Of a stretch of 64,000 nt of DNA, positions 56,995 through 62,419 are shown one piece after another. The position numbers were made by a program, and so were the translations under genes. Position 1 is the stretch's first letter. Every line of letters begins with the position of its first letter. Source of the stretch: Ensifer canadensis (lineage in GTDB: Bacteria; Pseudomonadota; Alphaproteobacteria; Rhizobiales; Rhizobiaceae); assembly GCF_017488845.2 (NCBI RefSeq), contig NZ_CP083370.1, forward strand, positions 558,001 to 622,000, in the 5' to 3' direction. The notes beneath the pieces are model-generated. The model saw only the letters and a list, made by a program, of their open reading frames with translations. It was not told the DNA's origin and did not search any database.

Positions 56995-59900
56995 ATGAAG
57001 TTCAACAAGCTTCGCCTGCTTGGCTTCAAATCCTTCGTCGAACCCAGCGAATTCATCATCGAGCGCGGTCTGACCGGCATCGTCGGCCCGAACGGCTGCG
57101 GCAAGTCGAACCTTGTCGAGGCATTGCGCTGGGTTATGGGGGAGAACTCCTACAAGAACATGCGCGCGTCCGGTATGGACGATGTGATCTTCTCGGGCTC
57201 CGGCAATCGCCCGGCGCGCAACACCGCCGAAGTCGGCCTCTACCTCGACAACAGCGATCGCACCGCGCCTGCCGCCTTCAACGACAGCGACGAAATCCAG
57301 GTGACGCGCCGCATCGAGCGCGAACAGGGCTCGGTCTACAGGATCAACGGCAAGGAAGCGCGCGCCAAGGATGTGCAGCTGCTGTTTGCCGACGCGTCCA
57401 CCGGCGCTCGCTCGCCGTCGATGGTCGGCCAGGGCCGCATCGGCGAGCTGATTGCGGCAAAGCCGCAGGCCAGGCGCCAGCTTCTGGAAGAGGCGGCCGG
57501 TATTTCCGGCCTGCACTCGCGCCGGCATGAGGCCGAGCTGCGGCTGAAAGCCGCCGAAACCAACCTCGAGCGCCTTGATGACGTCACCTCTCAGCTCGAA
57601 AGCCAGATCGAGAGCCTGAAACGGCAGGCGCGCCAGGCCAGTCGCTTCAAGATGCTCTCTGCCGATATCCGCAAGCACGAGGCGATCCTGTTCCACATCC
57701 GCTGGGTTCAGGCCAAGGAAGCCGAAGCCGAGGCGACCAGCCAACTCAACCAGGTGACGGCACTCGTCGCCGAAAAGGCGCAGGCCCAGATGCAGGCCGC
57801 CAAGGATCAGGCGATTTCCAGCCTGAAACTGCCGGAGCTGCGCGAGAGCGAGGCGAAATTGGCGGCCGCACTGCAGCGGCTGCAGATCGCCCGTTCGCAG
57901 CTTGAGGAGGATGCTGGCCGTATCCTGCGCCGTCGCGACGAGCTGCAGCGTCGCCTGGCCCAGCTTGCCGAGGATATCGCCCGCGAGGAGCGCCTGGTTG
58001 CCGACAATGCCGGTATTCTCGCTCGCCTCGACGAAGAAGATGAAGAACTGCGCGAACTGCTCGCCGAGGCGGACGACCGGGCAAGCGAAGCCCGGGAACG
58101 GCTCGAGGAAGCGAACGAAAAGCTCTCCATGAGCGAAGCAGATCTCAGCCGGCTGACGGCCGAGCGTGCCGAGGCACAGGCCGGTCGCAACCAGCTTGAG
58201 CGGGCGCTGCGCGATCTCTCGGAGCGGCAGGCTCGGTTGGCGCGCCAGCTCTCCGACCAGGCCCGCGATCTTGACGAACTCGACCGGCAGATGTCGACGC
58301 TGCCCGACCCGCACGAAAAACAGGGCCAGGTCGAAGTGGCCGAGGCCGCCCTAGAAGAGGCCGAGGCGACTGTCGCAGCCATCGAAGAGACCCTCGCCGA
58401 AACCCGCCGCGCCGAGGCCGACGCCCGCCCGCCAGTCGATCGGGCGCGGGCCATCCTGAACGGCATCGAGACCGAGGCGCGCACGATCCGTCGCATGCTC
58501 GAAGCGGCCGGTGGTGGCGACTATCCGGCTGTTGTCGAGGAGATGAAGGTCGACCGCGGCTTCGAGACGGCGCTTGGCGCAGCGCTTGGCGATGATCTCG
58601 ATTCGCCGCTCGATAGCGCAGCACCGGCCCATTGGCGTACACCGGGCGATCATTCCGGCGATGCCGCCTTGCCGCAAGGGGCGCGCTCACTCATCGAGCA
58701 CGTTCGCGCGCCACAGGCATTGACGCGTGCCTTGAGCCAGGTCGGCATTGTCGACAGCGAGGCAGAGGCCGAGCGGCTGATGCCGCTGTTGAAACCCGGC
58801 CAGAGCCTGGTGACGAAGCAGGGCTCGGTTTGGCGGTGGGATGGCCACGTGACCGGTTCCGAAGCGCCAAGTGCTGCAGCACTAAGGCTGGCCCAGAAGA
58901 ACCGCCTTGCTGAACTCGATACTGAGGCGGACGACGCCGGCGAGTCGCTCCGCCGTGCCGAGGCTGATCTTGCCGCTGCCGGCTCGCGCATCCGCGCCGA
59001 GGATGAACGGCTGAGGCTTGCGCGCGACGCCCAGCGCATGATCACGCGCCAGCTCGGCGAAGCGCGCGATGCGCTGGCCGCTGCCGAGCGCGCATCCGGC
59101 GATCTCTCGCGTCGCCGCGCGGTTGTTGCCGAAACCAAGAGCCAGCTTGAAAGCCAGCTTGAAGAGGTCGCCGAGCAGATCGAGACCGCCAACGACGCGC
59201 TTGCCGATGCGCCCGACCTTTCAGAACTTGAGCTGAAATTGCGCACGCAAACGGCAGATGTCGCCGCCGACCGGGCAGCGGTTGCCGAAAGGCGTGCGGC
59301 CCATGACGGACTTGCGCGCGAAAACGATGCGCGCCAGCGCCGGATCACTGCGATATCAGGCGAACGCCAGACCTGGAAAGCACGGGCGGCAAGCGCCGAA
59401 GAACATATAGCCACCCTCAGGGATCGCGAGGCGGAAGCGCGCGACGAGGTCGAGGAGCTGATGGATGCGCCCGACGAGTTCGAGGACAAGCGGCGCGCGC
59501 TGATGAACGAATTGCAGAAGGCCGAGGCTTCACGTCGCGAGGCCGCCGATATCCTGGCCGAGGCCGAGGGTCGCCAGCGCGAGGCAGACCGCATGGCCGC
59601 AACCGCGCTTTCGGAGTTGGCAGAATCGCGCGAAAAGCGCGGCCGCGCCGAGGAGCGGCTGGTATCCGGCCGCGAGCGCCGGGTCGAGATCGAGGCACGC
59701 ATCCAGGAGGCGCTCTCCTGTGCTCCGCATGAGGTTATGCGGCTGACCGGGCTTGCCGTCGACGAGGCGCTGCCGGACATGCGCAATGTCGAGCGCGAGC
59801 TGGAACGGCTGAAGATCGAGCGGGAGCGTCTTGGCGCCGTCAACCTTCGGGCCGAAGAAGAACAGAAGGAGCTCTCCGAGCGGCTCGCTCTGCTTCTGAA

Positions 59901-60456
59901 GGAACGCGACGACGTCATCGAAGCGATCCGCAAGCTGCGCAGCGCCATCCAGAACCTCAACCGTGAGGGTCGCGAGCGGCTGATCGTCGCCTTCGACGTG
60001 GTCAACGCCCAGTTCCAACGGCTTTTCACCCATCTCTTCGGTGGCGGCACGGCCGAGCTGCAATTGATCGAGAGCGACGACCCGCTTGAAGCCGGCCTTG
60101 AAATCCTTGCCCGTCCGCCGGGCAAGAAGCCGCAGACCATGACGCTGCTGTCGGGCGGTGAACAGGCGCTGACGGCAATGGCGTTGATCTTCGCCGTCTT
60201 CCTCACCAATCCGGCGCCGATCTGCGTTCTTGACGAAGTCGACGCGCCGCTCGACGACCACAATGTCGAGCGCTACTGCAACCTGATGGACGAGATGGCG
60301 GCATCGACCGAAACCCGCTTCGTCATCATCACCCACAACCCGATCACCATGGCCCGCATGAACCGCCTGTTCGGCGTCACCATGGCGGAGCAGGGCGTGT
60401 CGCAGCTTGTTTCCGTCGACCTGCAGACGGCAGAGCGGCTGAGGGAAGTGGTGTAA
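56995..60456 (+). CDS. smc: Chromosome segregation protein SMC
   Basis: 1153-residue condensin ATPase. Walker A GPNGCGKS (31-38), long coiled coils about 165-500 and 640-1000, hinge about 500-640, signature LSGGEQALTAMAL (1052 onwards) and Walker B VLDEVDAPLDDHN (D1080, E1081). With ScpA/ScpB it compacts and aligns replicated chromosomes. Those partners are not in the window. It is convergent with the caspase gene, with only 2 bp between stops. Confidence 0.97.
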   Translation: MKFNKLRLLGFKSFVEPSEFIIERGLTGIVGPNGCGKSNLVEALRWVMGENSYKNMRASGMDDVIFSGSGNRPARNTAEVGLYLDNSDRTAPAAFNDSDEIQVTRRIEREQGSVYRINGKEARAKDVQLLFADASTGARSPSMVGQGRIGELIAAKPQARRQLLEEAAGISGLHSRRHEAELRLKAAETNLERLDDVTSQLESQIESLKRQARQASRFKMLSADIRKHEAILFHIRWVQAKEAEAEATSQLNQVTALVAEKAQAQMQAAKDQAISSLKLPELRESEAKLAAALQRLQIARSQLEEDAGRILRRRDELQRRLAQLAEDIAREERLVADNAGILARLDEEDEELRELLAEADDRASEARERLEEANEKLSMSEADLSRLTAERAEAQAGRNQLERALRDLSERQARLARQLSDQARDLDELDRQMSTLPDPHEKQGQVEVAEAALEEAEATVAAIEETLAETRRAEADARPPVDRARAILNGIETEARTIRRMLEAAGGGDYPAVVEEMKVDRGFETALGAALGDDLDSPLDSAAPAHWRTPGDHSGDAALPQGARSLIEHVRAPQALTRALSQVGIVDSEAEAERLMPLLKPGQSLVTKQGSVWRWDGHVTGSEAPSAAALRLAQKNRLAELDTEADDAGESLRRAEADLAAAGSRIRAEDERLRLARDAQRMITRQLGEARDALAAAERASGDLSRRRAVVAETKSQLESQLEEVAEQIETANDALADAPDLSELELKLRTQTADVAADRAAVAERRAAHDGLARENDARQRRITAISGERQTWKARAASAEEHIATLRDREAEARDEVEELMDAPDEFEDKRRALMNELQKAEASRREAADILAEAEGRQREADRMAATALSELAESREKRGRAEERLVSGRERRVEIEARIQEALSCAPHEVMRLTGLAVDEALPDMRNVERELERLKIERERLGAVNLRAEEEQKELSERLALLLKERDDVIEAIRKLRSAIQNLNREGRERLIVAFDVVNAQFQRLFTHLFGGGTAELQLIESDDPLEAGLEILARPPGKKPQTMTLLSGGEQALTAMALIFAVFLTNPAPICVLDEVDAPLDDHNVERYCNLMDEMAASTETRFVIITHNPITMARMNRLFGVTMAEQGVSQLVSVDLQTAERLREVV

Positions 60457-60458
60457 CT

Positions 60459-62270
60459 CTACTCGAACTCAAGCAGGAAGCTCCCGGTCGCGTCTTGCGG
60501 ACCCATGTCGTCCCAAGTCGTTACCCGCAGCGATTTAAGATCGGCTCTGCCTTCGCGGTGAGCATAATACATGCCAACATCGTCGCCCTTCTTGTGCTCG
60601 TTCGGCATGTTGGCAAACCATTTCGAGTACGTCAGCGGCTCGCCGTCGTCCCAGCCCCATCCGCCGCGCGGCTCTCTGCCCTGGGACGCTTGAACGAGAC
60701 CGATCCACGGACCCATCTTGTAGCTGACGCCGCCATTCGGATCGTATCCGGTGTTGAAGAAGTTCTCGTCGCTGTTGAAGAGTGAGGCGACGAACTCGTT
60801 CTCTGCGTCCGAAGTGATTGTAGCGAGATGTGCGCCGCAACTCTTGGCCCAATATTGTGCGACTGAGGCAGGGACATAGAGGTATCGCACGACGACGTAG
60901 AGATGCCCCTGGAAGGCACCATAGACAGTGTCGTAGCGAGGTAGGCATTCAACTGCCCTCAGAACCCGCCCGTCGGTCTCCAGCCCTCTCAAATCATCGA
61001 TCTTGTATTCGCGGGCCTTGGTGGCGCTGTAGACGCCGTCGATATCCTGCGAAACGGCGATGCCAAGTGCCTTGGCGGTGCGTTCGCTGATAAAGCCGTT
61101 GCTCGGCTGCTGGTTCCGGCTTTGGTACTGCCGGATGGCAGTGCGGGTCTGCTCGCCGAAGACGCCGTCGGCCGTGCCGATCTCAAGCCCCGTCGCCGCG
61201 AGCGCCAGCTGCACGCTCCTCCGCGCTTCCTTGCTCGGAAGCAACCGGCTCTCGATCGTCTGCGGCGTTGAATTTTGACCCCGCGCTGTCGCCGGGTCGA
61301 TCTGCGCCAATGCCTGCCTACCAAGTTCGGCATATTCGCCTGTGCGATGCTTGGCGACGAAGAAGCGCCAGATGCGCGGCGTACCGACACGAAGCGCCTT
61401 TTTGAAATCGGCTTCGGCTTCAAGCTCTGCCGGATCGACGGCAGTCGAGGGGGCCGTCTGCGTCGATGCCGCCGTCGGTGTTTCCGGCCCGAAGTAGAAT
61501 TCCAGCGACAGGGACGAAAGGATCTGCGGTGATTGTTTGCCGCCCGTGTCCTTGCGCACATCGCGAACCACGCGCTTGAAGGCGGTGCCAACCTCAAGCC
61601 CGGGGCCGGAGAGGTTGGCGATCAGGGCGCGGGTAAAGGGTGAATGCCCGTCGGTGCCGTCGGCAGCGACCTGTCCCGGGGCGGCCGCAAAGGCGACCAG
61701 TGTACCGGCACCTTGCGTTTCGATCGGTGCAAGTCCGCGGGTGGCGCCGCCACGCGTGGCGCCATCGACGTCGACATTCAGTTTGTTGGCGAGCGGATTG
61801 TTGCGACAGGCGTCGAGGAACACCAGGGATATCCGGGCGCGTTTTTCGAGTGCATTGATGATCTCGGACAGCGCCACGGTTTCCGCCGGCACGTCGAACT
61901 CGCTTTCGAGCCTGGCATCCGTGCCGATCAGAAAATTCTCGCCATGGAGCTGCATGCCGTGGCCGGCAAAATAGAACAGTGCAATATCCTGCGGCCCGAT
62001 CTTGCGGGCGAAGCGCGAGAGCGCCTCGGCAAAGCTCTTGCGGTCTGCATTCAGCACGAGGTCCGCTTCAAAGCCTTTGCTCTGCAGGAAGCCGCTGAAG
62101 GCTTCGGCGTCGCGGGTCGCGTTCGGCAAGCTTCCGGCGATCGCGTAGTTACTCATGCCAACGATCAGAGCCAGCCGCTTGCCGCCATTGTCGCCGAACA
62201 CTGGGCTCGCAGCAAACAACAAAAGCAGAAATGACAGCATCGAAAAGCGCAGTTTCGCACGACATTTCAT
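60459..62270 (-). CDS. Secreted caspase-fold protease with peptidoglycan-binding and C-type-lectin domains
   Basis: 603 residues from ATG 62270 with GGAGG 7 nt upstream. Signal peptide 1-26. Peptidase C14 domain about 30-262: KRLALIVGMSNYA, catalytic His H104 (YFAGHGMQ) and catalytic Cys C155 (FLDACRNNP). A linker follows, then a peptidoglycan-binding-like domain about 350-405 (LQLA-like repeat, DGVFGEQTRTAIRQYQ). The last 150 residues resemble a C-type lectin domain: GAHLATITSDAENEFV, WIGL (522-525), GWGWDDGEPLTYSKW and WDDM (586-589). Function is unknown; exported bacterial caspases are not well studied. Single gene. Confidence 0.87.
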   Translation of the reverse strand: MKCRAKLRFSMLSFLLLLFAASPVFGDNGGKRLALIVGMSNYAIAGSLPNATRDAEAFSGFLQSKGFEADLVLNADRKSFAEALSRFARKIGPQDIALFYFAGHGMQLHGENFLIGTDARLESEFDVPAETVALSEIINALEKRARISLVFLDACRNNPLANKLNVDVDGATRGGATRGLAPIETQGAGTLVAFAAAPGQVAADGTDGHSPFTRALIANLSGPGLEVGTAFKRVVRDVRKDTGGKQSPQILSSLSLEFYFGPETPTAASTQTAPSTAVDPAELEAEADFKKALRVGTPRIWRFFVAKHRTGEYAELGRQALAQIDPATARGQNSTPQTIESRLLPSKEARRSVQLALAATGLEIGTADGVFGEQTRTAIRQYQSRNQQPSNGFISERTAKALGIAVSQDIDGVYSATKAREYKIDDLRGLETDGRVLRAVECLPRYDTVYGAFQGHLYVVVRYLYVPASVAQYWAKSCGAHLATITSDAENEFVASLFNSDENFFNTGYDPNGGVSYKMGPWIGLVQASQGREPRGGWGWDDGEPLTYSKWFANMPNEHKKGDDVGMYYAHREGRADLKSLRVTTWDDMGPQDATGSFLLEFE

Positions 62271-62419
62271 GACCTGCCTCCAAGCCCACAGGACTGAAAC
62301 GGATCGCCATGACGGGATATTCGCCGATGTGCCCCTCATCGCTTCGTAATATTAGATATTTATGATGGATGCTGCAATGTGCAGTCCTGGGCCGATTGCG
62401 TCAGCGCCACGCGGTAAAC

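Follow-up and report, generated by a model that had tools for sequence, protein, structure and literature searches.

To our knowledge, only a minority of bacterial caspase homologues have an established natural role, and a gene of Ensifer canadensis raises the question of where such a protease acts and what directs it. The gene lies in a 64,000-nucleotide stretch of contig NZ_CP083370.1 (positions 558,001 to 622,000, referred to here as the window) and joins a caspase domain to a signal peptide, a peptidoglycan-binding-like domain, and a C-type lectin domain (Table 1). This anatomy suggests a narrow, testable placing as a periplasmic, wall-anchored, lectin-directed protease. We propose that the protein would be exported by Sec to the periplasm, that its wall-binding domain would anchor it to peptidoglycan, that its caspase half would cleave after Arg or Lys, and that its C-type lectin half would recognize a ligand of the envelope or of foreign origin, thereby positioning or triggering the cut. 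The gene would belong to a recombining locus, in which copies share a near-identical protease half and carry different, stably kept wall/lectin halves, while single-copy genomes would retain one or the other of these; several ligands might in this way be answered with one output. Taken as a whole, we give a wall-anchored, lectin-directed, Arg/Lys-cutting periplasmic protease in a recombining family an even chance of being the right reading.

Table 1. Features of the caspase-PGB-lectin locus, in window coordinates
Feature	Positions	Strand	Basis or remark
Caspase-PGB-lectin gene, 603 residues, predicted to be exported	60459..62270, stop codon included	-	Open frame and full-length relatives
Possible sigma-70-type promoter, TTGCAG, 17 nt, TAATAT	62349..62377	-	Reading by eye
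Conserved leader with RBS-like GGAGG	62271..62348	-	About 75 nt, contains GAAT...CGTTTCA
Putative signal peptide, residues ~1-26, without lipobox	62193..62270	-	Pattern by eye
Caspase domain, residues 31-259	61494..62180	-	
Catalytic His104 codon	61959..61961	-	Alignment conservation
Catalytic Cys155 codon	61806..61808	-	Alignment conservation
PG_binding_1 domain, residues 347-402	61065..61232	-	Pfam
C-type lectin domain, residues 434-603	60462..60971	-	
Cys442, predicted disulfide partner	60945..60947	-	Co-occurrence with Cys478
Cys478, predicted disulfide partner	60837..60839	-	Co-occurrence with Cys442
smc, convergent neighbor, marks the syntenic locus in relatives	56995..60456	+	Pfam SMC_N, SMC_hinge

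Full-length relatives, for example P0003-P0017, are 70 to 77% identical to the window protein. Among the matches listed, the named relatives are proteins of Ensifer, Sinorhizobium, Rhizobium, Pararhizobium, and Mesorhizobium, mostly annotated as "caspase family protein." The Peptidase C14 profile matches at 126.4 bits against a curated cut-off of 21.4, and fold searches with the whole model listed caspase-fold matches only. The preliminary description had proposed an intact His/Cys caspase domain, and the alignment bears this out: D54, H104, D153, and C155 are each present in every one of the 58 proteins. Across 121 aligned rows, made up of the query and 120 listed of the 444 relatives found, His104 is kept in 118 and Cys155 in 120, the remainder being gaps. 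Some relatives are broken copies.

Human MALT1 is a scaffold protease that is located inside the cell and has Ig domains. With MALT1 C464 taken as the numbering anchor for C155, D54 and D153 align with the residues numbered D365 and D462, which presumably have a role in its Arg pocket. Both aspartates stand at pocket-type positions of a putative acidic S1 pocket, as judged from these two positions, and their invariance there makes a preference of the caspase half for basic residues (Arg/Lys) likely. Arg173, C-terminal of the catalytic Cys and kept in 55 of 58 proteins, is a possible self-cleavage site. Unlike the window protein, the MALT1 paracaspase (PDB 3uo8 and others) has no wall-binding or lectin part.

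The peptidoglycan-binding-like domain noted earlier was recovered as PG_binding_1, at 42.1 bits against a curated cut-off of 23. The profile matches in all 58 proteins of the alignment (A1), and binding to peptidoglycan is predicted from it. Because the whole-model fold searches had listed only caspase-fold matches, the lectin domain was modeled separately. The PDB matches listed for this model are C-type lectin domains; this supplies the fold prediction that had been suggested for residues 440-603, and it agrees with profile searches in assigning the C-terminal segment around WIGL and WDDM to the C-type lectins, as had been read from the sequence. An FGE-type fold is not favored over it by these matches. 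The Lectin_C profile matches in 55 of 58 proteins, the core tryptophans W538, W540, W551, and W586 are kept in 57 (with one gap), and W522 of WIGL is kept in 49. A viral origin of the domain was also considered, and a search of BFVD returned one match at E = 9e-6 and the next at 1.8e-3.

Besides the catalytic residue, C442 and C478 are the only cysteines of the mature protein. Both are present in 55 proteins and neither in the other 3, and this joint presence or absence makes a C442-C478 disulfide likely, and hence an oxidizing compartment. The export signal, as read by eye, has a basic start, a hydrophobic stretch, and small residues at the likely cut, and relatives are alike. Together with the wall-binding and lectin domains and the cysteine pair, it makes action outside the cytoplasm, as first supposed, probable.

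The usual sugar site of the lectin half holds MPN, and neither an EPN nor a QPD motif is present. The residue before PN is Glu in 7 of 58 proteins and Gln in 3. With Met at this position and Glu so infrequent, there is no ground to assume that sugar is bound through calcium; the lectin half may recognize something other than a sugar, or bind its ligand without calcium. The animal C-type lectins (CD23, CEL-I, mannose receptor) differ in this respect, since the query lacks Glu or Gln before PN, and they differ also in their cysteines: the query has the C442-C478 pair and no last-strand cysteine.

A stretch resembling the promoter candidate recurs in relatives, ahead of their single or distal copies; a strict consensus scan did not call the candidate. 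The leader is kept genus-wide ahead of distal or single copies. It is missing from G006_A, G009_C, and G001_D, all of them internal copies, and the internal copies in G010 retain part of it. The leader has no second copy in its own genome. Neither a consensus RNA structure nor consensus pairs were found for it among relatives, and an RNA element was rejected, the single Rfam match being far below the gathering score.

The gene had been placed in the core genome, and its distribution speaks against this. The caspase-lectin form is present in 11 of 16 genus genomes. The lectin half is present in 11 of 297 family genomes, joined to a caspase in 8 (with the caspase part frameshifted in G072) and part of other proteins in 3 (G036, G044, and G286), and in 2 of 385 class genomes; both samples were even draws from larger groups, with the window's own genome among them. 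It also occurs in 8 of the 26 genomes of the genus of G298. All 11 positive genus genomes have a copy or its remains beside smc. The 8 positive genomes of the other genus likewise have copies beside smc, of which two lie at a distance of about 0.8 kb. No smc was found in the stretches fetched from G027, G158, G221, and G461. The smc-side site is old, and the gene is often missing. In G044, a related lectin half follows a class III nucleotide cyclase (profile E = 6.9e-30); Lectin_C scores just under its cut-off in this protein. G461, which belongs to another family, has at least six caspase-domain genes with differing C termini within about 25 kb (L046 and L047); three of them carry a PGB+lectin-like half and others carry bacterial SH3 or F5/8-type modules.

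Two or three copies stand in tandem at the smc site in G006, G009, G010, and G001. From matches of the C-terminal half, and before trees were built, four types (A to D) were named; type A is that of the window gene, G006, G003, and G004. The caspase halves of the A/B pair in G006 and the B/C pairs in G009 and G014 are 97.6, 97.3, and 97.6% identical in DNA, versus 65.1, 69.1, and 63.5% for the PGB+lectin parts. Identity drops in all three pairs at the interval starting near residue 264 (20-residue resolution), and in the tandem pairs of G006 and G009 it drops a second time at the signal peptide. For the same pairs, caspase dS is 0.08, 0.11, and 0.09 versus C-terminal dS of 1.58, 1.12, and 3.67, the last being near saturation, and caspase dS of eight same-type pairs from different genomes is 0.32 to 1.15. 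These values come from a chosen set of 15 pairs, of which six are within-genome pairs. The low caspase dS beside the high C-terminal dS indicates that the pattern is not one of selection on the protein.

Trees of the two halves conflict. In the caspase tree, the pairs of G006, G009, and G014 group by genome, whereas the C-terminal tree places each type in a clade of its own. AU tests on the caspase tree rejected types A, B, and C as clades (P = 2e-5, 1e-7, and 7e-5; 0.013 for D). On the C-terminal tree, the groupings they rejected were the three same-genome pairs tested (P = 2e-4 to 3e-40) together with the sister pair G000/G002 (P = 3e-59). The frameshifted middle copy of G010 entered the identity tables and was excluded from dS and trees; the G001 copy on contig C3 entered the tables, was excluded from dS, and served with L018 as the tree outgroup; and the truncated G004 copy (L032) was excluded from all three. 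Proteins P0009/P0021 and P0015/P0027, each pair probably on a shared contig, show the same division, with 96.2 and 99.1% identity in the caspase part and 59.1 and 59.6% in the lectin part.

The G014 copies lie on two contigs of a three-contig assembly, probably two replicons. Their similarity extends upstream of the coding start, so duplication followed by fusion explains this pair as well as gene conversion does. A related case is G002, the nearest genus genome by SMC (98%) among the loci fetched. It matches the window locus at 92 to 95% just upstream of the gene and at 90.2% in the caspase half, and it has a type B C terminus at 63.8%. This is most simply explained by a swap, or by an array member having been lost through recombination between caspase halves.

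Homogenization of caspase halves is not general. In G010, G001, and G015, the pairs that involve type D have caspase dS of 1.08, 0.61, and 0.98, and the caspase tree does not unite them by genome. Homogenization is also lacking in the frameshifted copy of G010 (84.5% in the caspase half, 78.8% in the C-terminal half), in the third copy of G001, which is more distant (68.1 and 65.8%), in the G707 pair from another genus (about 72 to 98% by interval), and in the protein pairs P0009/P0029, P0015/P0080, and P0017/P0082 (caspase 81 to 85%), whose members probably lie on shared contigs as well.

The evolutionary pattern suggests that the protease is kept uniform and the recognition half exchanged, and a common protease with differing binding halves suggests one output with several inputs. 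We tentatively propose, at somewhat less than an even chance, a recombination-driven receptor-protease family of Gram-negative bacteria, in which copies at one chromosomal site, and on different replicons, change by gene conversion and by contraction of arrays. If this is true, the periplasmic caspase half would be kept uniform within a genome while wall/lectin recognition halves are swapped, an outward-facing, DNA-recombination counterpart of the retroelement-diversified caspase-lectin sensors found elsewhere. If borne out, it would be an outward-facing bacterial protease family that varies its recognition through ordinary recombination, and the swapped pairs would serve as natural experiments for finding ligands and substrates. 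Rhs/CDI-type polymorphic toxins likewise have a conserved N-terminal part, an exchangeable C-terminal part, and orphan C-terminal relics; in the Ensifer family, in contrast, it is the enzyme that is conserved and a binding module that varies.

A housekeeping envelope protease would process its substrates constantly, with the wall and lectin parts only holding the enzyme in place, and lectin-half differences would follow species-specific envelope polysaccharides without any sensing. Consistent with this, the gene stands singly, with no partner gene noticed in the loci read, its likely promoter and leader are conserved, and purifying selection acts on the lectin half among members of one type (G006_B/G009_B, dN 0.077, dS 1.03). 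Patchy presence and decayed copies would, however, be unusual for such an enzyme, as would one cell with tandem copies of differing lectin halves, and we regard this account as unlikely. The purifying selection also indicates that the lectin half is not hypervariable; each type looks like a kept specificity. A lectin-directed periplasmic protease is favored by the cyclase-lectin protein of G044, the caspase cluster of G461, and the sharing of one protease among different binding halves.

The protein could instead be a weapon or interaction factor, released or displayed at the surface and aimed at other bacteria or the plant host. The export signal, the lectin domain, and the diversified binding halves would suit this, as would the tabulation of Peptidase_C14 among domains over-represented in plant-associated proteobacteria (PMC554113, in the part of that study available). 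We nevertheless consider it improbable: the wall-binding domain suggests retention at the cell's own wall, relatives are spread over several genera, and neither an outer-membrane export signal nor a secretion partner was noticed on reading.

Cell-death or anti-phage caspases occur beside gasdermins or SAVED proteins. A cytoplasmic cell-death or anti-phage caspase akin to these would have the intact dyad and the caspase fold, and the PADLOC caspase model does match (E = 3.5e-14); the match covers only positions 5-130 of 453 and was not counted as membership. At 61.9 bits against a curated cut-off of 140, the protein does not score as an EACC1-associated caspase (NF047832). A place outside the cytoplasm is indicated by the signal peptide, the wall-binding domain, and the cysteine pair, and none of the neighbors identified by Pfam (smc, a DsbA-like thioredoxin-fold protein, a MutY-like glycosylase, and an AraC-type regulator) is a defense gene, which makes a cytoplasmic role very improbable.

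That the lectin half is the variable target of mutagenic reverse transcription by a diversity-generating retroelement (DGR) is barely credible and was rejected, although DGRs often target C-type lectin folds and some of their targets in cyanobacteria include orthocaspase domains (PMC7517822, in the portion consulted): the own genome has no template repeat (the last 400 bases lack a second copy beyond 18- to 30-base matches) and no DGR-type reverse transcriptase (the only RVT_1 match is a retron-type RT-protease), and type B lectin halves hold 78 to 88% DNA identity between genomes.

The preliminary description held that this combination differs from the usual view of bacterial orthocaspases. 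The export, wall, and lectin anatomy upholds this claim of a difference in part, and precedents for its components restrict the claim. A 2012 survey (PMC3501461) lists 11 metacaspase sequences (1.6%) with a putative peptidoglycan-binding domain and describes some metacaspases with an N-terminal helix, perhaps a signal peptide; like the window protein, the former join a caspase to a wall-binding domain. The word "lectin" does not occur in the survey's main text, whereas the window protein has a lectin half, and the accessible text gives no account of tandem copies or half exchange, both found in the Ensifer family. Cyanobacterial DGR variable proteins have an N-terminal orthocaspase and a C-terminal C-type lectin domain (PMC7517822, as excerpted), the same order as in the window protein; their diversity arises by mutagenic retrohoming, whereas the Ensifer-type family has a few stable types moved by recombination. 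The accessible portions of two further papers propose that C-type lectin folds in conflict systems act next to proteases, either as effectors or as sensors (PMC7159879, PMC10907252), and those of a Rhizobiales study report putative ExoR homologues with Peptidase_C14 or PG_binding_1 (PMC4550343). Among the matches listed, literature searches returned no description of the three-part architecture with recombining halves and no title on a caspase-PGB-lectin gene for Ensifer adhaerens and predation; a search on gene conversion in bacterial peptidase paralogues gave nothing relevant. Wall-binding metacaspases and orthocaspase-lectin fusions were already known.

The window's own genome (8.09 Mb, 6 contigs) has four further caspase-domain genes. 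An adjacent caspase-domain gene pair of another subfamily lies on C1 at 1249605-1251850 (L009 and L010). A frameshifted type D wall/lectin relic without a caspase part lies on C2 at 403134-403884 (L033:5102-5897, plus strand). Near position 2157720 of C1, a gene on the minus strand (L035:4869-6479) encodes a retron-type reverse transcriptase fused to a trypsin-like protease and matches PADLOC RT-Protease_XI at E = 2e-180. Elsewhere, L043:6811-8007 (minus strand) encodes a class III nucleotide cyclase with a C-type-lectin-like domain behind it, related to that of the window gene, and L044:7069-15129 (minus strand) encodes a protein of 2686 residues in which residues 2184-2300 form a C-type lectin domain.
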